Assembly (NCBI GenBank): GCA_947454705.1 | Contig: CANGKZ010000001.1 | Location: 62,001-126,000, forward strand | Direction: 5' to 3' | Source of the DNA: Verrucomicrobiota bacterium | Lineage (GTDB): Bacteria > Verrucomicrobiota > Verrucomicrobiia > Limisphaerales > UBA9464 | Length of the DNA: 64,000 nt | Shown here: piece by piece, positions 8,625-52,879 of the stretch | Layout: every line of letters begins with the position of its first letter | How positions within the stretch are numbered: position 1 is the stretch's first letter | Program-made: the position numbers and the translations under genes | Notes under the pieces: generated by a model | Told to the model about the DNA's origin: nothing | The model's database searches: none | The model's input: only the letters and a program-made list of their open reading frames with translations

Positions 8625-10045
8625 GGGGCGTCGTTGTCTCGATTTCGACGGCGTCCGCCGCGCGGTTCGGGAAGGGTCTGACCGGCGGGGACGTTGGTGA
8701 GGATCTGCGGCATCTGCGCGTTCACAGCGGAGAGATACTCGGACAACCGGGCATCGAGGCGACGCACCGACTCGGGGGATTCCTTCGCCAGATCGGTGCG
8801 CTCATAGGGATCGCGCGCCACGTTGAAGAGTTTGCGTTCGCCGGTTTCATAAACCCGCACGAGTTTTTCATCGCCGAGCCAAATCGCCGATGCGGGCCCC
8901 TGCCAGTCCTTGTCGTAGTGCGGGAAATGGATGACGAATTCCTCCCGGGGCCGAACCACCCGTCCCTGGCCTCCGTGAAACAGCAGCGGAACCAGGCTTC
9001 CACCCTCGATCCCCGGCGGCAGCGCACCGGTGAGCCCGGCGAGTTCAGCAAAGGTGGGGAACAGATCGCACGCACTCACCCGCACGTGACTGCAGGCGCC
9101 CGGCTGAATCCCCGGACCGGTAATCAAAAATGGTACGCGCACGCCGCCCTCCCACACCGTTCCCTTGCCGCCGGCAAGCGGCAGATTGCGACCCGGGGTA
9201 CCGTGATCGGTGGTGTACACGATGTAGGTCGTCGAACGAATGCCGAGACGCTCCACCGCATCCTGAATGGATTCCATGCACGCGTTCACGGCGTCGGACT
9301 CCATCCTCCGACCTTCGACTCCGGGCCCGCCGCCCTTGGCGTCCTGGCTCGGGTAATGGGACAACTGGAGATAGAACGGATGCCCCGCCTTCACCTGACG
9401 TTCCATGAAGGCGATTCCGTTCCTGGTCATTTCCACGGCCTGCTTCGGATTCGGATTTGCCACGTTGTCCGGACCGCCGTTGCCGGTGGGGCCGTCGCTG
9501 TCCTCGAATCCATGGCGCTGCGGATCCACACGACCCAAGTGCCACTTTCCGAAGTGGGCCGATGCATACCCCGCGGTCTTCAACAGCTCGGCGAGGGTGA
9601 CCTCTTTTGCCGCAAGTTCGATCGACGCCACGGGCGGCACCACGCGTCGTGTCGGCGCAGCGGTTCCCTGAACAGCACCCCGACCGCGCCCCCCGGAGCC
9701 ATCGCCAATGAAGGTCATGTGAAGCGCGGCAGGACTTTTGCCGGTGAGGAGCGCGGCGCGCGACGGGGTGCAACGCGGCGACGCGGCATAGCCACTGGCG
9801 AACCGCATGCCGCCGGCGGCGAGACGCTCCAGCCCGGGTGTCGGAATCGAAGCTCCACGGGAGGCCGGGTCGCGATCGTCCATTTGCACGGACGTGCTCG
9901 ACCAGCCCGCTCCTTCGCCGAGGATGACGATGAAATTCGGTTTCGCATCTGCCCCGTTGGCCGCATCGGCCCTGCGGCTCGACAGCAGCACCACGAGAAC
10001 GCCCAGGAGGCCCGACAGGATGCGTGAGTGTTGAATCGGAGTCAT
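8621..10045 (-). CDS. Secreted arylsulfatase-type enzyme with altered metal-site residues
   Basis: 474 residues, signal peptide to about residue 28. The formylglycine motif CTPSR is at residues 92-96 (C92), followed by AALLTG; HFGKWHLG, GGKG and WEGGVRVPF are the usual downstream blocks. Such sulfatases remove sulfate esters from glycans after C92 is converted to formylglycine by a maturase. Two blocks are unusual: the first strand reads FIVILGEGAGW, where sulfatases normally have ADD (two metal-binding Asp), and the DNG block reads TTDHGTPG. It overlaps both neighbours by ATGA, so it is the middle gene of a three-gene operon with the YHYH-PEBP and phosphatase genes. Confidence 0.88.
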   Translation of the reverse strand: MTPIQHSRILSGLLGVLVVLLSSRRADAANGADAKPNFIVILGEGAGWSSTSVQMDDRDPASRGASIPTPGLERLAAGGMRFASGYAASPRCTPSRAALLTGKSPAALHMTFIGDGSGGRGRGAVQGTAAPTRRVVPPVASIELAAKEVTLAELLKTAGYASAHFGKWHLGRVDPQRHGFEDSDGPTGNGGPDNVANPNPKQAVEMTRNGIAFMERQVKAGHPFYLQLSHYPSQDAKGGGPGVEGRRMESDAVNACMESIQDAVERLGIRSTTYIVYTTDHGTPGRNLPLAGGKGTVWEGGVRVPFLITGPGIQPGACSHVRVSACDLFPTFAELAGLTGALPPGIEGGSLVPLLFHGGQGRVVRPREEFVIHFPHYDKDWQGPASAIWLGDEKLVRVYETGERKLFNVARDPYERTDLAKESPESVRRLDARLSEYLSAVNAQMPQILTNVPAGQTLPEPRGGRRRNRDNDAP

Positions 10046-12387
10046 TTGACCGGGGCTTCGCGAATGTCGAGGTCAGGGCGCGTGTTCCATCGGGGCTTCC
10101 AGCCGGGTTTCTCGATCCGGGTTCGAAAGATCACCGTGTTGTCGAGGTCCAGGTCCGAGGTCCAGATGAACTTCGCCCCCTTGAAGTCGGCCTGGTAAGA
10201 GGCCTCCTTCGGATTCACCCGCTCCTCGGTGAACTCCACCGCGGCGGGCCACGCACTGTCGTCGAAATCGATGGCGTACCAATTTTGAGGAAGCGGTGTG
10301 TGTTCCACCTTCGGGTTCTGAACGTCGCGGTTCAACGGCCCGCGGAAGAAGTTCTTAGCCTTCCAGGTGGCGTTCGAAACGGTGCCGTCGGCGAACTTGA
10401 TGATGAATCCGCCGTCGCCGATGTGATTGCCGTATTCGAGGCCGGTCTTCGGATCGGCATTGTCCTTGGCCAGGATGGCGATGGTCATCGGGTATTCGGG
10501 GAGAATGTCCACGGTCACCACGTTGTGCGGCGTGAACTCGATTGGGTCCACGGCTCGGAGCTTGCCGTTGATGTACATCATGAACCAGTTGTCGGCGTAC
10601 ACGTTGACCTTGAGGGTGTCGGCGAGCGTGGGTTTGACGAGACCGCCGGAATCGCCCCGGGGTTCGCGGCGCGTTCCCGAATTTCCTGCGGCAGTTGCGG
10701 ACGGACGGGGGCGATCTTCCCGCGGGCGTTCCGGCGGGGTGGAATCGCCGGTCGCTCCGGCGCGGGTCGAGACGACCTTGAGTTCCGCGGTGGCTAGAAC
10801 CCGGTCGCGAATGGCGTTCAACAGCACATCGCGCGAAACAGATTCCGGACGATCCGCAATCACCGGCATCGAGGACAGCGCGTAGAGCGTGAGCACATAC
10901 GTCTTCGCCCCGGGCCCCTTGGAATGCGGAGGCGCGTAGCCGAGGCGACGATTGATGCCGTTGTTTCCGAGGGTTCCTACGCCGCTGACATTCTTGGGCA
11001 GGCTGCGCGTCGCGGCGGGAAGGTTGTAGAGGGTCCAGTACCACTTGGCTCGGCCCTCGGGATCCAAGTGGTGCATCGCGAGCGCGTACCCGGCCGTGCC
11101 CGCAGGCGCGCCGTCCCATTCGAGCGGAGGGGAGATTCCCGCCCCATCGCCGGTAAATTCCACCGGGAGCATGCCGCCGTCCGACACCGCCGGACTCTTC
11201 AGCACAAAGCCCGGCACCGGGCGTCGGATCTCCGCAGCCGTGGAGGCCGGCGGCTCGCCGCCCGGGGGCGCATCGGCGCGCGGACGCTCGCGCCGGGGAC
11301 GATCAGGCCGATCGGGTTGGTCCGGACCATTGCGTCCATTCTCGCGATCACCGGGACCCGCACCGCCACCACCGCCACCGCGGCGATCTCCGGGGCGATA
11401 CACTTCGTTGCGCGTGGTTCCATAGGTGCCGACGAATTGGAACTTCCACGCGCCGGATTCCGCGGCGGAGTAATTCACCGAGGCCGGAGTGCCGTTCACG
11501 GTGTATTGAAGCGCAAAGGTGCGATGATCCGGCGATGCGGTGAATCCGGTGATTTTCGCGCCCCGAAGCGGGGGAAGATCCGGACGCACCGGTTGGGCGC
11601 GGGGCTGCGGATCCACCTGTCCGCCGGCTTCGGTCACCCGACCGTGGAAACCGCCGTTGACGTACGGATAACGGGTGGATGCGTGATAGTGATACCCCAG
11701 CTTCGGCGTCTCGTGTCCGTTGAAGGCGTCGAGTCCCACCGGCGTGGATCCGTCCGGTTCGGTGAGGCCGTAAATCGCATAGCCATCCAGCGCGACCGCA
11801 ATCGGACTCGCCGTGCCGAGCACCTTGGCCAGATGCAGCGGCGCCGCGTGGTAATGGTAATCGTCGGCCCGACCGCAATGGCCGCCCCATTCATCGAGCT
11901 CCCCGATTTCCTGCGACACCTCGCCGCGATTATTCTGTGGATTGAAAATCGGAATGCCGTTGGCCGCGACCGCGATGGCCCCGCGCAGGAATCGTCCCCG
12001 AATCGACACCGGCGTGGCGGAAGGCTCGGGAGTCAGGGGAATCTGCCACGCGTTGGCCCCGGTGTACGGCTGCGGGAGCGGCACTTGTTGCTGCCAGGCG
12101 GTGATGCCGATCATCATGGGATGCGCCGGCAGGCCTTCCGATTCCACGTAAAGATAGCGGGCGTCGCGTCGCGTTTTCACCTGCGGCGCAAAGGCGGCGA
12201 ACATGGCATCGAGCGGATGCGCCTTCGACTCCCGGCTGGAGGAACCCTCGGCGGATCCCAGCGCGGCGAGTTGCAGGATCGGTCGTTCCGCACCCAAGGT
12301 CGATACAGCCCCATGATCGTGCCATTCATGCGCCAGCAGCGAACTGCCGAGCAACAGCGTGGCGAATCCCATTCGAGCGGTCTTCAT
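10042..12387 (-). CDS. YHYH domain fused to a YbhB/YbcL (PEBP) domain and a C-terminal beta-rich domain
   Basis: 781 residues from the ATG at 12387 (MKTARMGFATLLLGSSLLAHEW), chosen because it opens a signal peptide; an in-frame ATG at 12423 adds twelve unlike residues. The YHYH domain spans about 60-250, with its His-rich blocks DDYHYHAAPLH (near 177-180) and LGYHYHAS (near 232-235) and IGELDEWGGHCG, all likely metal ligands. A Gly/Pro/Arg-rich linker (about 310-375) leads to a PEBP domain (about 385-570; LEWDGAPAG, HHLDPEGRAKWYWTLYNLP). Residues about 615-781 are galactose-binding-like beta-sandwich. It heads the operon with sulfatase and phosphatase and is divergent from a two-component system. 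Its biochemical role is unknown. Confidence 0.85.
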   Translation of the reverse strand: MKTARMGFATLLLGSSLLAHEWHDHGAVSTLGAERPILQLAALGSAEGSSSRESKAHPLDAMFAAFAPQVKTRRDARYLYVESEGLPAHPMMIGITAWQQQVPLPQPYTGANAWQIPLTPEPSATPVSIRGRFLRGAIAVAANGIPIFNPQNNRGEVSQEIGELDEWGGHCGRADDYHYHAAPLHLAKVLGTASPIAVALDGYAIYGLTEPDGSTPVGLDAFNGHETPKLGYHYHASTRYPYVNGGFHGRVTEAGGQVDPQPRAQPVRPDLPPLRGAKITGFTASPDHRTFALQYTVNGTPASVNYSAAESGAWKFQFVGTYGTTRNEVYRPGDRRGGGGGGAGPGDRENGRNGPDQPDRPDRPRRERPRADAPPGGEPPASTAAEIRRPVPGFVLKSPAVSDGGMLPVEFTGDGAGISPPLEWDGAPAGTAGYALAMHHLDPEGRAKWYWTLYNLPAATRSLPKNVSGVGTLGNNGINRRLGYAPPHSKGPGAKTYVLTLYALSSMPVIADRPESVSRDVLLNAIRDRVLATAELKVVSTRAGATGDSTPPERPREDRPRPSATAAGNSGTRREPRGDSGGLVKPTLADTLKVNVYADNWFMMYINGKLRAVDPIEFTPHNVVTVDILPEYPMTIAILAKDNADPKTGLEYGNHIGDGGFIIKFADGTVSNATWKAKNFFRGPLNRDVQNPKVEHTPLPQNWYAIDFDDSAWPAAVEFTEERVNPKEASYQADFKGAKFIWTSDLDLDNTVIFRTRIEKPGWKPRWNTRPDLDIREAPVK

Positions 12388-12409
12388 GGCTGCATCCTGA
12401 CAGATGCCA

Positions 12410-12462
12410 GATGAATCCTGCATGAATGGCGGAAGATTCCTGGTGATTCATCCGGGCTTCAT
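12410..12462. promoter_or_regulatory. Two mirrored pairs of 11-bp-spaced ATGAAT repeats, candidate response-regulator binding site
   Basis: On the + strand ATGAAT occurs at 12411-12416 and 12422-12427, 11 bp apart. On the - strand ATGAAT (12451-12446) and ATGAAG (12462-12457) occur with the same 11-bp spacing. The two pairs match over AGATGAA-n-C-n-n-G-n-ATGAAT. Tandem half-sites one helical turn apart are typical of OmpR/PhoB regulators. The site lies in the 162-bp gap between the leftward YHYH operon and the rightward regulator gene, so autoregulation and control of the operon are both plausible. Confidence 0.6.
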
Positions 12463-25443: not shown

Positions 25444-26523
25444 ATGAAACGGATCCTCGCGCCGCTCGTTCTGTTCATCACCAGCGCGGCTTTCGCCGGG
25501 ACGCCGATCGAGTTGAAGCCTGATTCGCCGCACCTTCACGTCACCGGTTTGGGTTGGTACTCGGAGGATGCGCCGATTCTTCACCGGCTTCCGCTCCGGT
25601 TGAAGTCCACGGTCACCGATGCCGTGTGGTCCCTCGCGCAGCATCCCTCCGGGGCCCGCATCCGGTTTCGCACGGATTCGACGCACCTGATCCTCGCCGC
25701 AGCGAATCCCGACACTTCCACCATGCACCACATGACCACGGTGGGCCAAAGCGGCTTCGACCTGTACGTGGATGGCGCCTACCGAAACAGCGCGTGGCCG
25801 GACAGCGCCGGGAAGATTCGCAAGGACTGGACGCTCGGCCCGGATCGGCGTCTTCGCGAGGTCACCCTGTACCTGCCGCTCTACAAGGCGGTGACGCTCC
25901 AGGGGATCACACTGGATGCGGATTCCAAAATTGAGGAACCCGCGCCGTATGCGATCCCGAATCCGGTGGTGTTCTACGGGTCATCGATCACCCAGGGCGG
26001 CTGCGCGGAGAATCCCGGCCTGAGCTTCACCGCGATTCTGGGTCGGCGGCTGAACGTGGACTTCATCAACCTCGGCTTCTCCGGCAACGGACTGGGCGAG
26101 CCCGCAGTGGCCACGGCGCTCGCGGAGTTGAGTCCATCGGCCTACGTCCTGGATTACTGGGGCAATCCTTCGCCCGAGATGTATCGCGACACGCTTCCGG
26201 GCTTCGTGGCCACGCTGCGCGCGCGGCACCCCAAGGTGCCAATTTTGATCACCAGCCCGTTCTGGTTTCCCTCCGAGAGCGGATCGCCCGAGGCACACGC
26301 CACCCAGGAGCGGAAGCGTTCCATCACCAGCGACTTCGTGAAGGCGCGGCGCAAGGCCGGGGACCGGCAGATCTTTTTTGTCGATGGCCTGACCATGCTG
26401 TCTCCGACGCAATCGCATGGCCTGGTGGATGGGGTTCATCCGAATTCCCTGGGCTTCCAGTTCTGTGCCGATGGCCTCGAGCCGCACCTGCGCCGGGTGT
26501 TGAAACTGCGGGCGGGGCGCTAG
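25444..26523 (+). CDS. Secreted SGNH hydrolase with N-terminal GxDLY domain
   Basis: 359 residues; signal peptide MKRILAPLVLFITSAAFAG. The N-terminal beta domain carries the GFDLYVDG block near 104, typical of the GxDLY module that precedes SGNH esterase domains. The catalytic domain begins with FYGSSITQGG near 177-186 (nucleophile Ser in the GSS block), then INLGFSGNG, LDYWGNPS and the C-terminal DGVHPNSLG near 328 with the Asp-His pair. It should remove acyl or acetyl groups from a glycan or other extracellular substrate. The Shine-Dalgarno-like GGCCCTCCTTCC region upstream is weak. It lies alone between a repeat and the YadA-like pair. Confidence 0.88.
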   Translation: MKRILAPLVLFITSAAFAGTPIELKPDSPHLHVTGLGWYSEDAPILHRLPLRLKSTVTDAVWSLAQHPSGARIRFRTDSTHLILAAANPDTSTMHHMTTVGQSGFDLYVDGAYRNSAWPDSAGKIRKDWTLGPDRRLREVTLYLPLYKAVTLQGITLDADSKIEEPAPYAIPNPVVFYGSSITQGGCAENPGLSFTAILGRRLNVDFINLGFSGNGLGEPAVATALAELSPSAYVLDYWGNPSPEMYRDTLPGFVATLRARHPKVPILITSPFWFPSESGSPEAHATQERKRSITSDFVKARRKAGDRQIFFVDGLTMLSPTQSHGLVDGVHPNSLGFQFCADGLEPHLRRVLKLRAGR

Positions 26524-26652
26524 CGGATTGGAGTTTTGGGGTCGGTTCCGCATCCAGGGACCGAAAGGAATCATTCAAGCCGCGGGCCCCGGGGTTCGAT
26601 GGGACTAGGGGGTAGCCTCGGCGTTGGGACGCGGGGGCCGCTCCCGCCTGCT

Positions 26653-27549
26653 ATGCCCACGCCCTGCTCATTCTCGCTGCCGATTCACGGTTGGTCGTGC
26701 GGCCTTGTTGTGCTGGCGAGTGGCGGACTTCTCGCAGCGCAGACACCCGCGGTGCCCGGAGGAACAGTTCCGTTCCGAAACACGGCGTACGGCGACAAGG
26801 CGCTCGCCTCCATTGATCTCAGCGGCGATTTCCTCTCCCGCGCCCCGGAGAGCGCGATGAATGTGGCCGTGGGATATGCGGCTTTGATGGCCAATACCAC
26901 CGGCTATCGCAACGTGGCGGTGGGTGCATTCGCGCTCGGGGCCAATGTGTCGGGCCATGGCAATGTGGCCCTTGGCCGAAGTGCGCTCGGATCGAGCGTG
27001 GCCGGCGCGGACAACACTGCCATTGGCGATCAGGCTCTTTTCTCACTCCAAAGCGGCTCGGGAAACATTGCCCTCGGCAGTGGCGTGGGCGCGTGGCTGA
27101 CCAGTGGATCGGACAATTTGTACGTCGGCGCGACCACCGCCTTTCCCGGAGGACGCCAGGTGTCGGAGAGCGGAACGATCCGCATCGGGGACGTCGAGGG
27201 ACGTCACCGCGCCCTGTACCTCGGCGGGGTTCAGGATGCCGGAGTGGCGTCCGTTCTTCCGTTGGCGATGCAACGCGATGGCAAGGTGGTCCGACTCCAC
27301 TCGCTCCCGGAATTGCCAGGAGGAACGCCCGTGGTGGTGGATGATGCCGGGCATCTGGGCCGCGGGGTCGCATCGGGCGGTACATTGTCGCACGTGGCAG
27401 CGGAGCCGGTGTCTGGATCAATTCTTTTACTTCGAAGCGGCTCGCCACCCCCGGCCGGATTCACCCGACTGGGAGTGATGCGATCGGAATACCGGCCCGC
27501 TGGATCTGCACCGAAGGAAATCACGCTGGACCTGTACGTGAAGCCGTAA
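26653..27549 (+). CDS. Secreted YadA-head-like repeat protein, paired with the downstream kinase fusion
   Basis: 298 residues from the ATG at 26653, which opens a signal peptide (GWSCGLVVLASGGLLAAQ). Residues about 43-160 repeat an N-x-A-[IV]-G-x-x-A-L motif with exact 17-residue spacing at 70, 87, 104, 121 and 138 (NVAVGYAAL, NVAVGAFAL, NVALGRSAL, NTAIGDQAL, NIALGSGVG). This resembles the left-handed beta-roll of YadA-type adhesin heads and of some tail-fibre proteins. The C-terminal 120 residues (RHRALYLGGV, VVVDDAGHLGRG, GSILLLRSG, LDLYVKP) recur in the next gene. No membrane anchor is present, so it is probably released or held by a partner. Confidence 0.8.
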   Translation: MPTPCSFSLPIHGWSCGLVVLASGGLLAAQTPAVPGGTVPFRNTAYGDKALASIDLSGDFLSRAPESAMNVAVGYAALMANTTGYRNVAVGAFALGANVSGHGNVALGRSALGSSVAGADNTAIGDQALFSLQSGSGNIALGSGVGAWLTSGSDNLYVGATTAFPGGRQVSESGTIRIGDVEGRHRALYLGGVQDAGVASVLPLAMQRDGKVVRLHSLPELPGGTPVVVDDAGHLGRGVASGGTLSHVAAEPVSGSILLLRSGSPPPAGFTRLGVMRSEYRPAGSAPKEITLDLYVKP

Positions 27550-27589: not shown

Positions 27590-30322
27590 ATGGATTCCAG
27601 CCGATTCAACGCCTCGCCCGGTTCGAGTCGTGGGCTTCGATCCTGGACCCCGCCGTTGGTGGCCGAGTTGCAGTCGCTTTTGCCCCAGTACCGGTTTCTG
27701 GAATTGATCGGACGCGGAGAACGGTCAGCGGTGTATCGCGCGGTTCAAACTGCGAAGGAACGCAATGTCGCCATCAAGGTGATGCCCACGGATTCAGTGA
27801 CCGGAAATGATCCAGGCTTTCTCGAGCGCCTCCGGTTCACGGTGAAGGCCCTCGCGGATCTCTCCCATCCCGGGATCGCCGGCGTGTATGAACAGGGCGA
27901 GGTGGGACGCCTCTTGTATCTGGTCGAGGAACCGGTGGACGGAACAGATCTCGCGCGACACGTGCGCATGCACGGGCGCGTGAGTCAGTCCGAGGCGGTG
28001 GAGATCGCCATCCAGATCTGCGATGCGCTGGAGCGCGCGCATGAACGCGGTGTGGTCCATCGCGATCTTCGCCCCACCAACCTGCTTCGGGATGCTTCCG
28101 GGAGGGTGAAGATCGTCGATTTCGGTCTCGCCCGGGGCTCTTCCGGAAAGGCGATGGCGATGGATGCCGGAGACTACGGAGCCCCGGAGTTGTCGACACC
28201 CGGGGTGGTCGTGGACAGCCGGGCCGACCTCTATTCGCTCGGCGTAGTGCTCCATGAGCTGCTGACCGGAGATGTGCCCCGCAGCCCTTGGACGCCCCCG
28301 AGTGAGGCGGCCGACGTGGACCCGCGCTTCGATCCCATCATCGACCGCGCGCTGCGGCCGAATCCGGCGGAACGCTATCCCACCGCCGCCGAATTCCGTC
28401 GCGACCTGAAGGCCATCGAGCGGCGTCCGCTTGCCGGCGTGCGGCGCAGACCATGGTGGAAACTCCTGGCCATCTTCGGCGGAATCGCGGCGCTCCTCGC
28501 GCTCGTGGTGCTCCTCTGGCGCAGCCGCGGGGATCTTGCGAACGCCGGCACGCGGCTGGTGCCCGAATTTGGTACATCGGCCATCGAAAGCATTGAAGTT
28601 CCCGATGCGGACGCGGCAATCGATCCCAACGAGTCCACCGTGGAGTTCTGGGCCCTCCCAAGCAGCGCGGGATTCGGGTCCTTTTTCTCATTCGGAGGTG
28701 GCAGCGGATCCGGTGCCCTGTCCGCGATGGCGGGAGTGTTGGGCCAGGCGGGCGGGGGGATTCGGTGGGATTTCGGCGGACCGGCATCGGTGGGACGCCT
28801 CAGCGCACCGGGCCTTCCAAGAACGATGGGGAACTGGACTCACCTCGCCTTCGTGGCCAGCCGCGCCCGCAACGACATGCGGCTCTACACCAATGGAGTT
28901 CTGTCCGTCTCAAAGCCCGGGCTCGGCCGATTCGCTGCATCGACGAATCGATCGCTTTGGATCGGCCAGTCGGATGAGGGCTCCATGAAGGGATCGTTGA
29001 CCGAGTTTCGGGTGTGGAATCGGGCGCGTTCTGAAGAGGAGATTCGCAGGGACTATCGACGGGACCTAAAGGGAACCGAACCTGGCCTCGTGCTTTATCT
29101 GCCGCTCAAGGACGGAAGCGGCAGCGTCGCCACTAACCGCGCCGCAGCCACCGGATCCAAATACAATGGGCTGCTCCGCGGCGCTCCGACTTGGACCTCG
29201 AAACCCGAACCCGGTCGCGCGCGACGAGGCGATCGTGTGGGCTCAGTGGAAAACGGCAAGACCAACACGACTGCCTCCAGCGTTGAGGACCGGGAATCCA
29301 GTCGAGCCGAATCCCGGGACGGTGAGAGAGCTTCGCGTCCGTCGGCTGCGAACTCCAAAGCGGCGGCAGATCGCGATCCGGTAATTCTCCGACCGCGTGA
29401 GCCTGCGGTTCCACGCATCGACCTCGTGGGCGCAGCCACCAACCGGGTTCGTGGTGCCGCAACCCGCGGAGGCGGCTCAGCCACCAACGCTTCGCGCGCC
29501 CGTGCCCAAGGCTCCGGAGACACCGTTATTGGAGAGCACGTCCTTCAACTCGCGGGCCCCGCAGGCGCGAGCAACGCCATCGCCCGAGGTCGCTCCAACA
29601 CCTTCAATGTCACGATCGGTCCCGAGGCGCGTGAAACGAGCGGAACGAATCAGGTCGCGGTGGGAGCCGATGCGCTTCAACGAAGCCGTGTCGGGAACGG
29701 AACGGTCGCCGTCGGATCGGAGGCCCTGACCCAGGCCCGCGAATCCTCGGGGAACACCGCCGTGGGTTCGAAGGCGCTGGCCGCAATGCAGCGGGGATCC
29801 GGGAATCTCAGCGTGGGTGCGAAATCGGGCGAGGGCCTGCGCGAGGGGAACGACAACTTGCACCTCGGGGCGACCGGAATGTCGCTCGGGGATCTCGCGG
29901 TGGAAGATCGCCGCATCCGCCTCGGTGAGCTCGGAGGACGCCATCGCGCGTTGTTCCTGGGAGGCGTCCCTGCCGTGGAGGCCGCCAGACTCGACCGCAG
30001 CGCCGATCCCCTGCTCCTCGGAATTCGCGAAGATCGCCAGGTCGTCCGCATTCGCGACTGGGGCAGCCCCAAATCGGGAGTACCACTTTTGATCGACGAC
30101 TCCGGGCACCTCGGCCGCGGGCCAAGGCCTGCCCGGGCAGCGGACTCCACCGCTGAGGGCTTCACCTATCCCCCCGGTGCGTACGCGCTGCTTCTCGAAG
30201 GTTCCGCCCCGCCGCTGGGATACCGACGGCTCGGCGTGGTGGAGCCGGATCGGCTCGGGGCGTTTACGCCTGCAAACTCCAAGGCCCCGCCACTTCGATT
30301 CGAACTCTTCGTGAAGGAGTGA
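27590..30322 (+). CDS. Membrane Ser/Thr protein kinase fused to LamG-like and YadA-head-like domains
   Basis: 910 residues. The kinase domain (about 34-280) is complete: Gly loop GRGERSAV (41-48), K63 in VAIKV, H157-R158-D159 with N164 in HRDLRPTN (Arg where most kinases have Lys), D177 in DFGLA, APE at 198-200 and DLYSLGVVLHELLTG. One membrane segment is at about 291-309. Outside it lie a LamG/concanavalin-like domain (about 345-505; WTHLAFVASR, RLYTNGVL, TEFRVWNRARSEEEI), a charged linker (530-660), and head repeats with 17-residue spacing at G692, G709, G726 and G743. The C-terminal module (RHRALFLGGVP, LLIDDSGHLGRG) matches the upstream gene. An outside ligand sensed by the repeats may set kinase activity (inference). 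Confidence 0.88.
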   Translation: MDSSRFNASPGSSRGLRSWTPPLVAELQSLLPQYRFLELIGRGERSAVYRAVQTAKERNVAIKVMPTDSVTGNDPGFLERLRFTVKALADLSHPGIAGVYEQGEVGRLLYLVEEPVDGTDLARHVRMHGRVSQSEAVEIAIQICDALERAHERGVVHRDLRPTNLLRDASGRVKIVDFGLARGSSGKAMAMDAGDYGAPELSTPGVVVDSRADLYSLGVVLHELLTGDVPRSPWTPPSEAADVDPRFDPIIDRALRPNPAERYPTAAEFRRDLKAIERRPLAGVRRRPWWKLLAIFGGIAALLALVVLLWRSRGDLANAGTRLVPEFGTSAIESIEVPDADAAIDPNESTVEFWALPSSAGFGSFFSFGGGSGSGALSAMAGVLGQAGGGIRWDFGGPASVGRLSAPGLPRTMGNWTHLAFVASRARNDMRLYTNGVLSVSKPGLGRFAASTNRSLWIGQSDEGSMKGSLTEFRVWNRARSEEEIRRDYRRDLKGTEPGLVLYLPLKDGSGSVATNRAAATGSKYNGLLRGAPTWTSKPEPGRARRGDRVGSVENGKTNTTASSVEDRESSRAESRDGERASRPSAANSKAAADRDPVILRPREPAVPRIDLVGAATNRVRGAATRGGGSATNASRARAQGSGDTVIGEHVLQLAGPAGASNAIARGRSNTFNVTIGPEARETSGTNQVAVGADALQRSRVGNGTVAVGSEALTQARESSGNTAVGSKALAAMQRGSGNLSVGAKSGEGLREGNDNLHLGATGMSLGDLAVEDRRIRLGELGGRHRALFLGGVPAVEAARLDRSADPLLLGIREDRQVVRIRDWGSPKSGVPLLIDDSGHLGRGPRPARAADSTAEGFTYPPGAYALLLEGSAPPLGYRRLGVVEPDRLGAFTPANSKAPPLRFELFVKE

Positions 30323-30341: not shown

Positions 30342-31526
30342 CTACGGGGAGCGGGGCTCCATCGGGGCCGGTGGGGTGGCCGGAAAGAACGCCTGCTGGA
30401 TCTTGCGCGCGAAGCGGATTCCCAACTGCTGAACGCCGGCTTCGTTGAAGTGATCGCCATCCACGCGGCGGTACTCGGGCCCGAGATCATCGGTCTGCGG
30501 ACCGTCGTAAGTGAACGGCACCGTCTCCAGCACGTGCTGCGCACCGCGATCGATCCGCTCCTTGCGTCGCTGCATTTCGGTGGGGCCAATCTTTTCCAGA
30601 ATCCCGGGATCGAACGCATCAAATCCGATCACCCATGGCAGTTTGGGATATCCGGAGTCGATCCGACTGCGGGCGATGAGCCGTTTGAAGTTGTCGTAAA
30701 ACACCTCGGCGCTCGGGCCCTGATTGAGATCATTCTCATTTCCGAACCACACGATCGCGCGCAAGCCGGTGTACGGAGTCCAGTGCTGCAGCGTGGCGCG
30801 GCAAGCCACATAGGAGGAATCCCCGTTCTTGGGATCCTCCGCCACCTTGCGCCAGCGCTCGACCGTCGTTCCGCCAATGCCGGTGGAGATGATCAAAACT
30901 GGAACATGCAGCTGGCGCACCAGCACATCGCCCACCGCGGTCCAGGGCGAGGCCCGGTGCGCATCGGCTGGCCGCAACGGATCGTCGGCATGGCGGAACC
31001 CAAGCCGTGCGGGCGGCGTGTTGGTCCAGTCGATGCACGTGGCCACGCGGTCCTCCTCGGATCGACCCGGACGGATTCCCTGGAAATTGGAACAAAAGGA
31101 ATGTCCCGCCGCGACGAACACCTCGCCCACGCCGACCTTGGAAATGGTGCTCTCGCCGATCACCGAGCCCGACGCATCGAGGGCCCGGACGGTGAGCGTG
31201 TACCAGCCGCCAGCGGCGACTTCGAGCGAGCCCTTGAACTCGCGGGAATTCGGTTTGGCGATCACGACAAAACCGGAGGACTTGCCATCGACGCCCTCGC
31301 GATACGCCGCGATGAGCGAGACGCGGGCCTCGATCTGCGCGGCCGGTTTGTCGAACGAACCCGCGATCGGAACGCGCGCCGTGTTGGCGGCGGAGCGTTG
31401 AAACACGGCGTAGGACATCGGCGACGTGAGGTTCAACGCATCGGCCGCGGCGAGTCCGCAGCAGGCGACGCCGGCGAACGCAACCAGCGCCAGCAGATGA
31501 CGCAAACGGGAAAAAGAATGGCTCAT
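30342..31526 (-). CDS. Secreted SGNH/sialate-O-acetylesterase-like protein with modified motifs
   Basis: 394 residues from the ATG at 31526 (MSHSFSRLRHLLALVAFAGV), which opens a signal peptide; longer in-frame forms run through the divergent promoter. Residues about 30-130 form a beta-sandwich leader. The catalytic-like part has VFVAAGHSFCSN in the place of the usual GQSN block, STGIGGTTVERW, WFGNENDLNQG where sialate-O-acetylesterases have W-x-QGE, and DGDHFNEAG with the Asp-His pair near the end. The family removes O-acetyl groups from sugars. The changed second motif makes the substrate, or even activity, uncertain. It is convergent with the kinase gene and divergent from another SGNH gene. 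Confidence 0.78.
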   Translation of the reverse strand: MSHSFSRLRHLLALVAFAGVACCGLAAADALNLTSPMSYAVFQRSAANTARVPIAGSFDKPAAQIEARVSLIAAYREGVDGKSSGFVVIAKPNSREFKGSLEVAAGGWYTLTVRALDASGSVIGESTISKVGVGEVFVAAGHSFCSNFQGIRPGRSEEDRVATCIDWTNTPPARLGFRHADDPLRPADAHRASPWTAVGDVLVRQLHVPVLIISTGIGGTTVERWRKVAEDPKNGDSSYVACRATLQHWTPYTGLRAIVWFGNENDLNQGPSAEVFYDNFKRLIARSRIDSGYPKLPWVIGFDAFDPGILEKIGPTEMQRRKERIDRGAQHVLETVPFTYDGPQTDDLGPEYRRVDGDHFNEAGVQQLGIRFARKIQQAFFPATPPAPMEPRSP

Positions 31527-31695
31527 GGGTTTGGGTGCCGCGAACTCCGGCGCACCGAAAATGGACGAACCCGCAGGCACGGGTCGATCCCCCATTCGGG
31601 AAAACGCCGACATTTCGAAGCCATCCCATCGCGTGGAGATAGAATCCTTTACCCCAGCGGATGGATTCGATCCTCTCGGGCACTTCTCCTTCGAC

Positions 31696-32538
31696 ATGAA
31701 ACCGCCAATTCCAAGGCCTGTTCCCGCTGTGGTCGGACTGACTCTCACGCTGGCGTTGACGCTGCTTGGGGGCCTGGTGGGTTCGGGCGCGCGTGCGGAC
31801 GCGTCCCCGCGGGAGCGTGCAGATCCGAATTCCCGGATCGCCCACACCCAGCTTGTCGAGAAGGCGCGGCAGGGCGGGATCGACCTCTATTTTCTCGGCG
31901 ATTCCATCACCCGCCGATGGGGCACCAAGGATCCGCAATACCGCGACTTTCTCGCCAACTGGCGCACCAATTTCTTCGGATGGAATGCGGGCAATTTCGG
32001 CTGGGGAGGCGACACCGTTCAGAACGTGTTGTGGCGCATTCGCGAGGGCGAACTGGATGGGGTTCATCCCAAGGTCATCGTGGTGCTCGCTGGCACCAAC
32101 AACCTGGGTGGAGCGGATGCGACGGAGCGCGCGGAGGAACTCGTGGAGGACGTGACGGGGGGAATTCGCGCGATTCTCAGAACGATCCTTGAGAAGGCGC
32201 CCGGGGCGACGGTAATCCTGACCGGCGTATTTCCACGCAACGATGGCCGGCGCGGAACCCGGCTGATTCCGTTGATCCGAACGATCAACCAACGACTGGC
32301 AACGATGACCGATGGAAAGAAGGTCCGGTTCGTGGATCTATCGGATCGCCTGGCCGACCGGGAAGGCAGGCTGGTGGACGGTACGACGGTCGATGGCCTG
32401 CATCTGTCGGTGACCGGGTACCAGATTTGGGCAGACGCCTTGAAGCCACACCTGATCGAGCTGCTGGGTCCACGGTCTGCGAGGGATCACGCACCTCCGC
32501 CCACGGGCGATCCCGGCGTGCGCAACGGAGCCCAGTGA
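31696..32538 (+). CDS. Secreted GDSL/SGNH hydrolase
   Basis: 280 residues from the ATG at 31696 (MKPPIPRPVPAVVGLTLTL), chosen because it opens the signal peptide; an in-frame start at 31525 would cover the promoter region of the divergent gene. SGNH blocks are intact: FLGDSITRRWG (block I, Ser), NFGWGGDTVQN (block II, Gly), VVLAGTNNLGG (block III, Asn) and DGLHLSVTGY (block V, Asp-His). This pattern is that of platelet-activating-factor acetylhydrolase-like and acetylxylan-esterase-like members. It should deacylate an extracellular substrate. It is convergent with the GH43 gene, with only five bases between their ends. Confidence 0.9.
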   Translation: MKPPIPRPVPAVVGLTLTLALTLLGGLVGSGARADASPRERADPNSRIAHTQLVEKARQGGIDLYFLGDSITRRWGTKDPQYRDFLANWRTNFFGWNAGNFGWGGDTVQNVLWRIREGELDGVHPKVIVVLAGTNNLGGADATERAEELVEDVTGGIRAILRTILEKAPGATVILTGVFPRNDGRRGTRLIPLIRTINQRLATMTDGKKVRFVDLSDRLADREGRLVDGTTVDGLHLSVTGYQIWADALKPHLIELLGPRSARDHAPPPTGDPGVRNGAQ

Positions 32539-40033: not shown

Positions 40034-44572
<4,539 letters not shown>

Positions 44573-45628: not shown

Positions 45629-48600
45629 GTGTTCCCCCGGTTGGTACCCGCGCTCCTCCTTGCTTGGATTGGGCAGCTTTCGATCTCCAGCGGGCTTGTG
45701 GCTGCAGATCGAGCGGTTTCCCTCGCCCCTTTGTCCCGTGGATCGTTCGCATTTGCGAACATTCCGGCGGCGGAATCGGGCATCCGGTTTCAAAACACGC
45801 TTCCGCCGGCGGCCGCAGCCCGGAACCGCAACCTGATGAATGGGTCCGGGGTGACCGTCGGTGATGTGGATGGCGACGGGAAACCGGATCTGTATTTCGC
45901 GGCCATCCAGGGTACGAACCGTCTTTATCGAAATCTGGGCCGATGGAAGTTCGAGGACATCACGGATCGCGCCGGCGTGGGGTGTCCGCTGTGGGCTTCG
46001 ACCGGTGCAGTGTTTGAGGATGTGGACGGCGACGGGGATCTCGATTTGCTGGTATCCACCCTGGGCTCGGGCGTGCACCTGTTTCTGAACGACGGCACGG
46101 GCAAGTTCACCGATGCGACGGAGAAATCAGGGCTGGCGTCGAAAAGCGGGAGCATGTCGATGGCCTTCGGAGACATCGATGGCAACGGAACGCTCGATCT
46201 CTACGTGGCCAACTACGGGGTTCAGCCGATTCTGCAATCCGGTCCCGGTCGTGCCTCGATCCGTCAGGTGAATGGAAAGTGGGTGGTGGAGGGTCCGTAT
46301 GCCGACCGGCTTCGCGTGGTGGACAATCAGGTGGAGGAAGTCGGTGAAGTGGGCGTGCTGTACCTCGGCGATGGGCATGGTTCGTTTGTGGCGCAACCGT
46401 GGAACTCCGACCGTTTCCTCGACGATCAGGGCAAGCCCAAGGCCCCGCCTGCGGATTACGGATTGAGCGTTCACCTCCGCGACATCAACGGCGACGGATT
46501 CCCGGATCTGTACGCCTGCAATGATTTCCAAAGCCCGGACCGGTGTTGGATCAATGACGGCAAGGGCCACTTTCGCGAGGTGTCGCGACTGGCGATCCGG
46601 AAGCATGCGTTCTCGTCGATGGGCGTTGATTTCGCCGATCTGGATCGCGACGGAATCACGGACTTCATGACCGTGGAAATGTCGCCGCGATCGCACGCGC
46701 GCCGCATGCGGTCGCTCACCGGTCCGCGGTATCTGCCGAATGTTCCGGGGCGTTTTGATTATCGACCCGAGGTGGTGCGCAACACGTTGTACCACGGCAA
46801 TGGCGACGGCACCTGGAGCGAGATCGCCGAAGCCGCGGGTGTGAGCTCCACCGATTGGTCGTGGCAGCCGGTGTTTCTCGATGTGGACCTCGACGGATAC
46901 GAGGACCTGCTGGTGGCCAGCGGCGTGATGTACGACGTGCAGGACCGTGACACCACCGAGCGAATCCAGGTCGAGGCGCGCGGCGGTGGAACCCTGGGGG
47001 GAACCAACCTGGTCCGCTTCCCGGCATTTTCCTCCCCGCTGCTGGCGTACCGAAATCGGGGCAACCTGACCTTCGAGGACTCGGGCGAAAAATGGGGACT
47101 CCGAATTCCCGCGATGTATCAGGGCATCGCACTCGCGGATCTCGATGGGGACGGCGACCTCGATGTGATCTGCAACTGCGTGAACGGCGAACCGATCCTG
47201 TATCGAAACGACGCCACGGCGCCGCGCATCGCGGTGCGGGCCCGCGGGCGCGCGCCCAACACGCGGGGGATCAACGCTCGGATTCGTGTGACCGGCGGTC
47301 CGGTGGTGCAGACGCAGGAACTCGTCTCCGGCGGACGCTACCTCTCGGGCGATGATCCGGTCCGAACTTTTGCCACCGGCTCTGCAACTGAAGTGGAGAT
47401 CGAAGTCACCTGGCGGTCGGGCCGCAAGACACGGATCCCCCACGCCTTACCAAACCACCTGTATGAAGTGGATGAAGCCGCCTCGGAGGAAGCCAAGCCC
47501 GTGCTCGAACCCCGGAAGCCGCGTCCGCTGCTGGCCGATGTCTCCGGCGCGCTGAGCCACGTGCATCACGAGGAGTTGTACGACGACTTCGCGCGGCAGC
47601 CCCTGTTGCCCCGGCAGATGAGTTCGCTAGGCCCGCAGGTGGCCTGGATGGATTTCGACGGCGATGGACGCCCGGAGTTGGTGGTGGGAACAGGACGCGG
47701 CGGAACGCTCGCCGGGTTCAAATTCCGCGAGGATGAAACGGTCACGCCCTTCACGTCGGATTGGACCGCGCCGGACGACGTGCTGGGCATGACATCGTGG
47801 GTGCTCGCCGATGGCCGACCGGCAGTGCTCGCCGCGATCAGCAATTACGAGACGGCTCCGGGAGGCGCCTCTTCCCTGGTCGCGATTACGATGCGTCCAG
47901 CTCCAGGTGTGGGGCTTCAGGTGACTCCCTTTGACGAAGTGACTGCATCGGCCGGAAGCCTCGGCGTGCTGGCATCGGCCGACTTCGATGGCGATGGGTC
48001 GCTCGACCTCTTTGTCGGGGGGCGTATCAATCCTGGTGCATACCCCACGGCCCCCTCGTCGCGGATGTTCCGTTCCGTCGGCGGGCACCTGAAGTTGGAC
48101 GAAGTCACTGATGCGCTGCTGACGGGCGTGGGGATGGTCTCGGGAGCCACGTGGACGGATCTGGAAGCCGATGGTTTTCCCGAACTCGTGCTCGCGTGCG
48201 AATGGGGCCCGCTGCGGATTTTCCGAAACCACCAGGGACGTCTCACCGCGTGGGATCCCCCGGTTCAATGGGGAACGGGGGCGGCGCGTCAGACGGTTCC
48301 GCTGTCTTCCCTGACCGGTTGGTGGGGCGGAGTGGCGGCCGGGGATTTCGACGGAGATGGGCGCATGGATCTGGTGGCAGGAAACTGGGGATCCAACACC
48401 GGATACCGCGCTTCGAAGGAGCGACCGCTGCGGTTGCTCTATGGAATGCAGGCTGGCTCGGGCAGTCTGGATTTGCTCGAAGCGTATTTTCCCGCCGATC
48501 TAAACACCGAGATGCCGCGCCGGTCGCGTCGGGCCCTGACCCTCGCCTTTCCCCAGCTCGCGGAGCGCTTTCCCACCCACGCGGCATTTGGCGAGGCAAC

Positions 48601-49291
48601 GCTGTCGGCGGTGATGGAGGCGATCCCGCTGCGGATGGAATCGGTCGCCGCCACCACGTTGTCGTCGATGGTGTTGCTGAACCGGGGCGACCACTTCGAG
48701 GCGGTGGAGCTCCCGCAGGAGGCGCAATGGTCGCCGGTGCAAGGAGTGTCGATTGCAGATGTAAACGGTGACGGCAACGCCGACCTGCTGTTGTCGCAGA
48801 ACTTCTTCGCCATGCGGATGGAATGGCCGCGCACCGACGCGGGTCGCGGGTTGGTGTTGCTGGGCGATGGGCGGGGCGGGTTCAAATCGCTGACTGCCCG
48901 GGAATCCGGCGTGATGGTCCTGGGCGAGCAGCGTGGAGGCGCGGTGGCGGACTTCGATGGGGACGGCAAGCCGGACTGGGTGGACACGCAGAACGGCGCG
49001 CCCACGCGACTGTTCCGCAACTACACCGGCAAACCCGGAATGCGTGTGAAGGTCGCCGGCGCGAAGGGCAACCCGAACGGATTGGGCGCGGTGATTCAGT
49101 TGCGGGGTGCCAGCGGCTGGGGCCCGGCCCAGGAGCTGCATGGCAGTTCGGGCCAGGGATCCGTCGATGCAGCGGAAGCCCTGGTGTTCGGTTCAGGCGA
49201 TGCGGTCCGCGTCCGCTGGCCCGGCGGAAAGGTCACGGAGACCCCAGTTCCCCCCGGCACCCGAGTGCTGACCGTTAAACCGGCGCAGTGA
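45629..49291 (+). CDS. Large secreted FG-GAP/VCBS repeat protein with two ASPIC/UnbV domains (CRTAC1-like)
   Basis: 1220 residues, started by GTG at 45629; an in-frame stop (TGA at 45614) rules out any earlier start. A signal peptide covers residues 1-26. I count 13 calcium-loop motifs of DxDGDGxxDL type along the sequence (for instance DVDGDGKPDLY, DIDGNGTLDLY, DFDGDGSLDLF, DVNGDGNADLL), typical of integrin-like beta-propellers; two propellers fit this number. ASPIC/UnbV-type domains follow each: about 534-607 (GINARIRVTGG) and about 1134-1210 (GNPNGLGAVIQLRG). Such proteins are common in PVC-phylum genomes; extracellular binding or adhesion is inferred. It stands alone between the CBM6-like gene and the RNA repair operon. 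Confidence 0.92.
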   Translation: MFPRLVPALLLAWIGQLSISSGLVAADRAVSLAPLSRGSFAFANIPAAESGIRFQNTLPPAAAARNRNLMNGSGVTVGDVDGDGKPDLYFAAIQGTNRLYRNLGRWKFEDITDRAGVGCPLWASTGAVFEDVDGDGDLDLLVSTLGSGVHLFLNDGTGKFTDATEKSGLASKSGSMSMAFGDIDGNGTLDLYVANYGVQPILQSGPGRASIRQVNGKWVVEGPYADRLRVVDNQVEEVGEVGVLYLGDGHGSFVAQPWNSDRFLDDQGKPKAPPADYGLSVHLRDINGDGFPDLYACNDFQSPDRCWINDGKGHFREVSRLAIRKHAFSSMGVDFADLDRDGITDFMTVEMSPRSHARRMRSLTGPRYLPNVPGRFDYRPEVVRNTLYHGNGDGTWSEIAEAAGVSSTDWSWQPVFLDVDLDGYEDLLVASGVMYDVQDRDTTERIQVEARGGGTLGGTNLVRFPAFSSPLLAYRNRGNLTFEDSGEKWGLRIPAMYQGIALADLDGDGDLDVICNCVNGEPILYRNDATAPRIAVRARGRAPNTRGINARIRVTGGPVVQTQELVSGGRYLSGDDPVRTFATGSATEVEIEVTWRSGRKTRIPHALPNHLYEVDEAASEEAKPVLEPRKPRPLLADVSGALSHVHHEELYDDFARQPLLPRQMSSLGPQVAWMDFDGDGRPELVVGTGRGGTLAGFKFREDETVTPFTSDWTAPDDVLGMTSWVLADGRPAVLAAISNYETAPGGASSLVAITMRPAPGVGLQVTPFDEVTASAGSLGVLASADFDGDGSLDLFVGGRINPGAYPTAPSSRMFRSVGGHLKLDEVTDALLTGVGMVSGATWTDLEADGFPELVLACEWGPLRIFRNHQGRLTAWDPPVQWGTGAARQTVPLSSLTGWWGGVAAGDFDGDGRMDLVAGNWGSNTGYRASKERPLRLLYGMQAGSGSLDLLEAYFPADLNTEMPRRSRRALTLAFPQLAERFPTHAAFGEATLSAVMEAIPLRMESVAATTLSSMVLLNRGDHFEAVELPQEAQWSPVQGVSIADVNGDGNADLLLSQNFFAMRMEWPRTDAGRGLVLLGDGRGGFKSLTARESGVMVLGEQRGGAVADFDGDGKPDWVDTQNGAPTRLFRNYTGKPGMRVKVAGAKGNPNGLGAVIQLRGASGWGPAQELHGSSGQGSVDAAEALVFGSGDAVRVRWPGGKVTETPVPPGTRVLTVKPAQ

Positions 49292-49581: not shown

Positions 49582-50547
49582 ATGAGCCCGACCATTCAGC
49601 TCATCCTTTCTTCTGGAACCCGTGTTGTGACGCGCAGGGATGCGCATGGCATGGGTGGTGACCGCTTGATTCCCAAGGGGAGCGTTGGCGAAATCGTGAC
49701 CTCACCGCTCGATGCCCAGCACGCCTATCAGGTGCGATTCAATGATGGCGTGGAGGCGATGCTCCGAAGGTCGGAATTCTCGATTCTCAAACATTTCAAG
49801 ACCAACGAAGCCCTCGGGCGTCCCGGAGATTCGGAGGCGGGAGCTTCGGACTCGGAGGATCGAGAGTTCGAAACCTGGAAGCCTTGTATCATTTACCGCT
49901 GCATCGTGGGCTCGCAGGCCTTTGGACTGAGTGGTGAAGACTCGGATGTGGATCGCCGGGGTATTTATCTTCCTCCTGCGGAAGTTCACTGGTCGCTGTA
50001 CGGATTCCCCGAGCAGTTGGAGAATGACGCGACCCAGGAAGCCTATTGGGAATTGCAGAAGTTTCTGGTGATGGCGCTGAAGGCTAATCCAAACATTCTG
50101 GAGTGTCTCTACACGCCCCTGGTCGAGCATGCCGATTCGCTTGCCCAGGAGTTGCTGGGAGAGCGGCACCGGTTTCTGTCGAAGCTCATCTTTCAGACCT
50201 ACAGCGGTTATGTGATGAGCCAGTTCAAAAAGCTGGAACAGGACCTTCGAGCCCGCGGAGAGATCAAGTGGAAGCATGCGATGCACTTGGTGCGCCTGCT
50301 GCTCTCCGGAATCACGATGCTTCGAGAAGGCTCGCTGCGTGTTCGGCTGGATGAACATCGGGACGGGCTTCTCTCCATCAAGCGAGGCGAACGCGAATGG
50401 GCCGATGTGAACCAGTGGCGGCTTTCGCTCCATTCCGAGTTTGAATCGGCCCTGGGTATTACCAGCCTGCCTGATAGACCGGACTATGCGTGGGCAAATC
50501 AGTTTCTAATCCGGGCGCGGAGGCACAAGGCCTTCTCCGGATCCTGA
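49582..50547 (+). CDS. RlaP-type predicted nucleotidyltransferase with N-terminal barrel domain
   Basis: 321 residues, no signal peptide. Residues about 1-72 look like a small SH3/KOW-like barrel (GSVGEIVTSPLDAQHAYQV, NDGVEAMLRRSEF). The DNA-polymerase-beta-like nucleotidyltransferase core follows: G110-S111 in CIVGSQAFGL and the metal-binding Asp triad D120, D122, D124 in GEDSDVDRRGIYLPP. The helical remainder (LQKFLVMALKANPNILECLYTP; KHAMHLVRLLLSGI) is that of RlaP, named for its link to bacterial RNA repair genes. It may add nucleotides to damaged RNA ends, but the reaction is unproven. It starts the repair operon; hen1 begins 20 bp after its stop. Confidence 0.85.
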   Translation: MSPTIQLILSSGTRVVTRRDAHGMGGDRLIPKGSVGEIVTSPLDAQHAYQVRFNDGVEAMLRRSEFSILKHFKTNEALGRPGDSEAGASDSEDREFETWKPCIIYRCIVGSQAFGLSGEDSDVDRRGIYLPPAEVHWSLYGFPEQLENDATQEAYWELQKFLVMALKANPNILECLYTPLVEHADSLAQELLGERHRFLSKLIFQTYSGYVMSQFKKLEQDLRARGEIKWKHAMHLVRLLLSGITMLREGSLRVRLDEHRDGLLSIKRGEREWADVNQWRLSLHSEFESALGITSLPDRPDYAWANQFLIRARRHKAFSGS

Positions 50548-50567
50548 GACCCATTGGGGAATTCGAA

Positions 50568-52049: not shown

Positions 52050-52879
52050 GCCCGGCGATCCTTCCCGAGGATTCCAAGACACGGGCACTCTCCTCGATCG
52101 AGCTTCGGCGTCATCTTCAAGATCCCGCTGCCGATCAGGAATCCTATCCGTGGATTTCTGCCATGCGGGAACTGCAGTGCCGACTCCCGGAGGAGTTCGA
52201 ATCCGTGATTTCATTGAGCACCAGCGAATCTCCAAGGGATCGTGAACTCGCCGCGGATCTTTTGGGACAAAACCTCCTAGCTGAAAAACAGAGGCTTCCG
52301 GAGGTCCGTCAGATTCTACTTCAAATGCTGAACCGGGAACAGATGCCCCCGGTGGTGAAGGCGATCGCCTTCGCACTGGGTCACGTCAACGGTCCGGAGT
52401 GCCTTGTGCCCTTGGTGAACCTAAGTGAGCACCCGAGTGCGGATGTTCGCCTTGCGGCGGTCTCAAGTCTGGGAGGGGGTGCGGATCCGCGTGCAATTGC
52501 GGCAATGATCCCGCGGGTGTCGGATGAAGATTGCGACGTGCGGAATTGGGCGACCTTTGGACTCGGCTCGTTGGTCGAGGTTGATGCGCCCGGGATCCGG
52601 GAAGCCCTGCTGAGCAGGTTGAATGACGCCGATTTGGAGATTCGCGATGAGGCCCTCATCGGGCTCGCGCGACGCCGTGAATCGCGCGCAGTTCCTGCGC
52701 TTCTTCGGGAATTGCAGAGCCTGAAGGCAAGGGGAGGTTCCACCGAGCAGTGGGAGTGGTTTGTCTCGGAGTTGGAGGAGGCCTTGAAGTTGGTTCCGGA
52801 TCCGATGGAGTCCTCCGACTGGGCCCCTGTGGCTAAGGCGATTTCAGCGCTCCGTTCGGAAGGAGGAAATCGCCCGTGA
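52046..52879 (+). CDS. HEAT-repeat protein embedded in the RNA repair operon
   Basis: 277 residues, cytoplasmic. Residues about 55-215 are helical pairs of HEAT type (ELAADLLGQNLL; PPVVKAIAFALGHVNGPECLVPLV; ADVRLAAVSSLGGGADPRAIAAMI; DCDVRNWATFGLGSLVEVDAPGIREALLSRLN; DLEIRDEALIGLARRRESRAVPALL). No catalytic motif is visible. HEAT arrays bind proteins or nucleic acids; alkylpurine glycosylases of AlkD type are built this way too, though no active-site Asp is evident. Start and stop overlap both neighbours (ATGA with hen1, GTGA with pnkp), which ties it to the pathway. A scaffold between Hen1, Pnkp and damaged RNA is a guess. Confidence 0.88.
   Translation: MSPAILPEDSKTRALSSIELRRHLQDPAADQESYPWISAMRELQCRLPEEFESVISLSTSESPRDRELAADLLGQNLLAEKQRLPEVRQILLQMLNREQMPPVVKAIAFALGHVNGPECLVPLVNLSEHPSADVRLAAVSSLGGGADPRAIAAMIPRVSDEDCDVRNWATFGLGSLVEVDAPGIREALLSRLNDADLEIRDEALIGLARRRESRAVPALLRELQSLKARGGSTEQWEWFVSELEEALKLVPDPMESSDWAPVAKAISALRSEGGNRP
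52861..52866 (+). promoter_or_regulatory. Strong ribosome binding site deciding the GTG start of pnkp
   Basis: AGGAGG lies nine bases before the GTG at 52876, inside the end of the HEAT gene. It supports the GTG start, whose codon overlaps the HEAT stop as GTGA. Confidence 0.75.

Follow-up and report, generated by a model that had tools for sequence, protein, structure and literature searches.

A Hanks-type kinase gene fused to LamG and tail-fibre-type repeats in a Verrucomicrobiota bacterium, adjacent to the probable source of its tail

We analysed a window of 64,000 nt, i.e., the whole stretch of DNA at positions 62,001 to 126,000 of contig CANGKZ010000001.1 from a Verrucomicrobiota bacterium (assembly GCA_947454705.1, in the following the own genome). 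All coordinates are positions in this window; G numbers denote related genomes and L numbers the loci compared, both being internal labels. An initial annotation had described a Ser/Thr kinase gene that continues through one membrane segment into a LamG-like domain and 17-residue repeats. Gene, membrane segment and LamG-like domain are all recovered (Table 1), with the Pkinase profile scoring 132.2 bits (cut-off 31.7) and Laminin_G_3 70.8 bits (cut-off 27.6) on the fusion protein. The nearest solved relatives of the kinase are PknB chains (about 1e-41, PDB search), and no Pfam match above cut-off was found beyond residue 485. Judged by its sequence, the fusion gene appears to be real, with known parts in an apparently rare combination.

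Table 1. The fusion gene, its parts and its conserved neighbours in window coordinates.
Feature	Positions	Strand	Basis
GDSL/SGNH-type esterase, conserved neighbour	25444..26523	+	Pfam Lipase_GDSL_3 and GxDLY; same position in G001
Sister gene: repeat and C-terminal module alone	26653..27549	+	40% identity to kinase tail, E 1.2e-36
Kinase-TM-LamG-linker-repeat fusion gene	27590..30322	+	single open frame, 910 aa; joints recur in G007 and G001
Hanks-type kinase fold, residues ~34-276	27689..28417	+	Pfam Pkinase 34-231, E 3e-38; PknB alignment 30-276
Membrane helix, residues ~288-314	28451..28531	+	sole strongly hydrophobic stretch, Kyte-Doolittle
LamG domain, residues 335-485	28592..29044	+	Pfam Laminin_G_3, E 1.8e-19
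Basic linker, residues 541-640	29210..29509	+	composition: 18 Arg + 2 Lys vs 12 Asp+Glu
Regular 17-residue tail-fibre-type repeats, residues ~687-771	29648..29902	+	lag-17 test; PHROG tail spike, E 2.2e-10
Conserved C-terminal domain, residues ~772-910	29903..30319	+	five-sequence alignment; no Pfam match
SASA-type acetylesterase, conserved neighbour	30342..31847	-	Pfam SASA, E 4.8e-12; like protein after G001 tail, by eye

The sister gene just upstream, on which the initial annotation is silent, has a frame of 337 codons (26536-27549), probably starting with the ATG at 26653, and its product shows a hydrophobic, signal-peptide-like N-terminus, both read by eye and from hydropathy. Its end is separated from the kinase gene by 40 bases, in the window as well as in G001, and a search of the own genome at E<=10 finds no copy of the module besides kinase tail and sister gene. 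We considered a prophage at this site and rejected it for lack of evidence: the neighbours scanned encode esterases of cellular type, and phage likeness is confined to the repeats. Elsewhere in the window, a 1512-aa protein (40034-44572, +) combines sulfatase, DUF2341, LamG and SASA esterase domains in one chain, a 793-aa frame (10042-12423, -) holds YHYH and phosphatidylethanolamine-binding protein domains, and a 1220-aa protein (45629-49291, +) carries FG-GAP repeats with an ASPIC/UnbV domain. At 50490-55449 (+), Hen1 (TIGR04074) and Pnkp (TIGR04075) score above cut-off and form a bacterial RNA-repair pair; the match located between them, to a HEAT-repeat-like "putative lyase", stays below its cut-off.

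Tail matches at E<=0.001 are present in 7/96 related genomes (own included). They are strong in the own genome, G001 and G007, all of one genus, while the tail was not found in the other five genomes of this genus among those 96 (G002-G006). In G007, the sister gene is followed by kinase, helix, LamG and part of the linker up to the contig end (63% over residues 3-555). In G001, one contig end holds the esterase, the sister gene and kinase residues 1-243; another holds part of LamG, the linker, repeats and tail, followed by an acetylesterase-like gene. Both pieces presumably belong to one gene. The unbroken full-length fusion gene is seen in the window only, and the own assembly is a draft of 80 contigs, which would fit an assembly artefact joining two genes. 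Each joint is however seen independently in a different assembly with the same neighbourhood, because G007 provides kinase-TM-LamG and G001 provides LamG-repeats-tail. We thus reject the artefact, which we regard as highly improbable.

A tail-alignment scan of the genome contigs of 84,980 species, which relies on short conserved peptides and may overlook distant members, returned 30 pattern stretches, 7 of which encode a relative, all in Verrucomicrobia assemblies. Among these 7, L042-L044 are the G001 and G007 loci and L046 is a G048 protein cut by a contig end; L045 and L047 are repeat proteins without kinase fusion. A more sensitive profile search matches 37 of 320 genomes of the order, and the full C-terminal module is strong only in own, G001, G007 and, cut off, in G048. 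Repeat proteins of the tail-fibre type occur in 37/320 genomes of the order, with own, G001 and G007 included. We read 40 regions of repeat-protein places, 7 of which lack a frame with at least four strict motifs; this strict-motif test would miss the window gene (2 motifs), which the profile test finds.

The full protein is matched at E<=1e-66 in 12/320 genomes of the order and at E<=1e-62 in 7/387 genomes sampled from the phylum (own included), and the seven other loci of the phylum sample show no repeats in the part examined. Altogether, the loci collected comprise 1088 frames of at least 200 residues, of which 79 score as kinases, 115 as repeat proteins and 120 as tail-module proteins. The initial annotation had suggested a search for Pkinase combined with the repeats. 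Among these 1088 frames we found no other kinase-repeat fusion, i.e., the only double matches are two copies of the window gene, with loci cut at their flanks such that frames longer than the flank are seen in part.

Next to its orthologues, the window kinase has relatives with other outer parts. In a tree of 63 rows it lies inside a clade of 17 rows (support 98/99), with the three orthologues (100/100) as the sister group of the 14 other rows (95/97), which represent 12 distinct genes; both in the 17-row clade and in the kinase alignment below, two pairs of rows stem from G027 genes that lie in overlapping loci. The outer parts of these 14 rows consist of LamG, LamG plus right-handed beta-helix, beta-helix, or LRR-like sequence. 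Above Pfam cut-offs are LamG in L049-L052 and L068 as well as the beta-helix in L050 and L051; the LRR of L076 is under its cut-off. By eye, we assigned a beta-helix to L067 and L078 and an LRR to L077 and L079-L082. L052 and L068 are kinase relatives with LamG and without repeats. On G027:C297 (L051, L068), two kinase-TM-LamG genes are adjacent, only one of which has a beta-helix tail.

Since clade relatives carry it, kinase-TM-LamG alone is not new in this bacterial family. This narrows the earlier statement that no example of the domain order had been described: the complete order did not turn up anywhere else in the genomes and papers covered, but its kinase-TM-LamG part is recurrent. Outer parts seem to have been swapped freely inside one kinase clade, as expected for receptors.

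With regard to the kinase core, we aligned 56 rows, leaving out seven that duplicate the window gene or one of its two orthologues in whole or in part. The beta3 Lys (K63), HRD-Asp (D159), N164 and DFG-Asp (D177) are all present in the window kinase, as annotated, and are retained in all three species. HRD-Asp, Asn and DFG-Asp are kept in 56/56 rows and the beta3 Lys in 54/56 (the others being one Arg and one gap in a cut row). The further claim that all kinase motifs are intact does not hold. The alphaC Glu, found in 52/56 rows, is Thr84 in the window kinase, Asp in its two orthologues and Gly in L028. The HRDxK position is Lys in 52/56 rows and Ser in one; Arg occurs only in the window kinase (Arg161) and its two orthologues. 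The P+1 Thr (50/56 rows) is replaced by Ala only in the same three kinases, which are also the only ones among the 56 rows to have lost all three residues jointly. Furthermore, their DFG-to-APE segment has 24 residues compared to 28-38 in the other rows except L010 and L013, and the LTRTNVAVGT-type activation-segment stretch of the relatives is absent from the window kinase. L010 and L013 are kinases of the own genome (C1 and C11) with DLG for DFG, a 24-residue activation segment and the alphaC Glu kept.

Some active tyrosine kinases have Arg at the HRDxK position, and Asp at the alphaC Glu place of both orthologues may be partly functional. Pseudokinases are usually recognized in sequences by loss of beta3 Lys, HRD-Asp or DFG-Asp (rule as given in excerpts of PMC12599244), all of which the window kinase has kept. 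Nei-Gojobori dN/dS for the tail is ~0.28, and the three kinase pairs give ~0.15, 0.11 and 0.10; these values are rough because dS is near saturation (0.98-2.28). In terms of dN, the kinase (0.20-0.25) is the most or equally constrained part when compared to the tail (0.39). The low kinase dN/dS thus indicates that the kinase fold is maintained by selection, and we reject a vestigial kinase given this purifying selection. That is, the attribute "active-looking" is backed by the retained ATP- and metal-binding residues and by purifying selection, but is too strong in view of three lost conserved residues.

These observations bear on two alternative readings. The protein might serve surface or envelope attachment, with the kinase fold as an inner anchor or docking platform that transmits no signal. 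LamG and fibre-type repeats are binding modules and the kinase core is altered, as such a role would allow; on the other hand, no part is more constrained than the kinase, which keeps its ATP- and metal-binding residues in three species, and the clade relatives resemble ordinary receptor kinases, all of which makes this reading quite improbable. Alternatively, following the initial proposal of ligand-driven clustering, an ordinary active receptor Ser/Thr kinase is conceivable whose outer part is trimerised or clustered by a ligand, leading to trans-autophosphorylation. Fibre-type repeats in phages are usually trimeric, and both the four retained catalytic-core residues in the window kinase and its orthologues and the purifying selection fit such activity. 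In PASTA kinases, dimerisation by a ligand activates the kinase (excerpts of PMC6213207), which is the nearest worked-out precedent. Against this stand the lost alphaC Glu and P+1 Thr as well as the short activation segment without the LTRTNVAVGT-type stretch, such that we consider an ordinary active kinase somewhat unlikely.

For the repeats, residues 679-762 show 27 identities at lag 17, while the shuffle maximum over lags 10-24 averages 10.4 and 0/5000 shuffles reach 27. PHROG tail-spike and virion families match with 2.2e-10 and 1e-9 for the kinase tail and with 1.9e-16 and 1.3e-16 for the sister protein, in line with the annotated tail-fibre type. The second part of that annotation, i.e., a likeness to YadA heads, fares differently: the period of 17 is confirmed but membership in the YadA family is not. 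Pfam YadA_head gives no match at E<=10 to either window protein (HMMER filters hide most matches above ~0.1) and the G001 tail reaches 13.4 bits (cut-off 25). YadA repeats have ~14 residues, mostly 15 in UspA1 (excerpts of PMC9543794). Because of the missing Pfam match and the period of 17 instead of 14, we do not assign the repeats to YadA_head; they appear to group with phage tail-fibre repeats.

According to Pfam, both window proteins lack the Peptidase_S74 C-terminal chaperone, which the repeat proteins L035 and L036 carry. The sister protein has 96 matches at E<=1e-3 among phage records, none of which covers 80% of its length; several of the best 15 of these 96 are annotated as tail fibre or endo-N-acetylneuraminidase. 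In virus contigs, 37 stretches fit the tail peptide patterns and 3 of them encode a tail relative. Searching the tail sequence against the PDB gave 24 sequences, all ABC transporters with E 0.77 or worse. A profile of the repeats hits no PDB chain at E<=1, nor does it lead to an informative Pfam family. L034 (G048:C826, 3-572) is related to the tail domain and has a collagen-like stretch inserted ahead of the last conserved block.

Structure models were obtained with AlphaFold2. The model of the kinase's own tail (mean pLDDT 42.8) is too poor for a fold search. The sister protein reaches a mean of 55.3, with ~64-83 per ten-residue block in the repeat zone, where this low-confidence monomer model places two short strands per 17 residues. 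Foldseek lists 166 PDB matches of the sister model at E<=10 and none at E<=0.001 (best 2.2). A second look with VIA yields alginate and pectate lyase, tail-spike and other solenoids with a best Z of 8.6, rated middling by the tool, and thus we claim no fold for the sister protein. Against viral models, Foldseek gives 10 matches at E<=0.001 with 19-33% identity, namely five phage proteins, one of a giant virus of a protist and four nameless ones.

Identities are 54% between the kinase tails of different species, 74-77% between sister proteins and 37-40% between the two groups. Kinase tails and sister proteins thus form separate groups, consistent with one duplication before the species split. 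The same module is found alone, with a signal-peptide-like start, just upstream of the kinase gene; the kinase tail was therefore probably copied from the adjacent sister gene before these species parted. The sister gene also provides the best sequence argument for the position of the kinase tail, as a module that alone carries a signal-peptide-like start argues for a location outside the cytoplasm. Together with the recurring joints, this supports the initial placement of the repeats in the outer part of a membrane-spanning kinase-fold protein. The tail could still be a neutral passenger of the gene fusion, with LamG as the sole sensor and a functionally unlinked sister protein, given that L052 and L068 manage with LamG and no repeats and that the tail evolves fastest (dN/dS ~0.28). 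However, the tail is under purifying selection, conserved residues of its C-terminal domain are kept in two species and the sister gene adjoins the kinase gene in all three species seen; we thus deem a passenger role improbable.

With regard to topology, ligand, oligomerisation and output, we infer a model that we consider about as likely to be right as wrong. Here, the protein would be a single-pass inner-membrane Hanks-type receptor with an outer LamG and fibre tail, acting as an allosteric kinase or ATP-binding scaffold. Following hydropathy and the sister N-terminus read by eye, the kinase fold would reside in the cytoplasm, with LamG, basic linker, repeat stalk and C-terminal domain outside. 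Either by itself or jointly with the sister protein, the outer part would most likely recognise a ligand that is glycan-like or lies on a surface, and the helix would relay a change of shape or oligomeric state to the kinase fold. Because alphaC Glu, P+1 Thr and the activation-loop Thr stretch are lost while ATP- and metal-binding residues are kept, the kinase fold would probably not be a classical PknB-like autophosphorylation switch but a kinase driven allosterically and independent of its activation loop, or else an ATP-binding scaffold. We lean slightly towards scaffolding or activation-loop-independent activity. More tentatively, the locus might encode a two-protein form of surface sensing, in which the secreted fibre-type protein and the kinase form mixed oligomers whose fibre make-up or clustering sets the state of the kinase fold without activation-loop phosphorylation.

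All elements this model starts from, i.e., gene, domains, conservation, motif changes and sister gene, are read directly from the sequence. As far as searched, the genomes and papers covered do not describe the combination, the likely origin of a sensor from a gene neighbour or the core changes specific to this kinase clade. In open-licence PubMed Central, no paper on this architecture was found, with the tables of PMC11032199 possibly listing a LamG kinase; in PMC12923769, kinase, YadA, LamG, head domain and peptidase S74 were not found. According to excerpts of a kinase survey of the PVC group, 105 accessory domain groups form 307 architectures and half of the groups occur in one protein only (PMC11032199). 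That is, new kinase combinations are common in this group, which lowers the surprise. A receptor kinase apparently gained a new sensor by copying a neighbouring gene; should it act together with the sister protein, or bind it as a ligand, the two genes would offer a genetically simple, testable system. The clade furthermore represents a natural test of a kinase fold that lacks alphaC Glu and activation-loop Thr with its ATP-binding residues under selection.

Among known systems, bacterial pseudokinases resemble the window kinase in single features. According to excerpts of PMC12599244, the DYD family likewise loses the alphaC Glu and a DLHK member is listed with a HRDLRP-like loop; in contrast to pseudokinase families, the window kinase keeps beta3 Lys, HRD-Asp and DFG-Asp, and in contrast to the window protein, DLHK members are described there without membrane segments. 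YadA-type heads with their short repeats GxNSVAIGAxSxAx (excerpts of PMC9543794) recall the window repeats, but the window protein has a period of 17 instead of 14-15 and matches neither YadA_head nor an autotransporter anchor. The NxAxGxxAL 17-residue repeats of the window proteins are shared with phage tail-fibre/endosialidase-type (Peptidase_S74) proteins of phages and Verrucomicrobia; compared to these, the window C-terminal domain is of its own kind, has no S74 and is fused to a kinase. PASTA kinases (PknB, PrkC, Stk1) show the same layout of an inner kinase fold, one helix and outer ligand-binding repeats, whereas the window protein has no PASTA domain, scores 205.9 bits for PknB_PASTA_kin (cut-off 450) and has an altered kinase core. 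Similar in layout are also the kinase-TM-LamG(-beta-helix) proteins of G003, G027 and G048 from the same bacterial family, which belong to the same kinase clade and have one membrane segment and a likewise placed LamG. Unlike the window kinase, they keep alphaC Glu, HRDxK and a long activation segment, and where they carry a beta-helix or nothing, the window protein has its fibre repeats.
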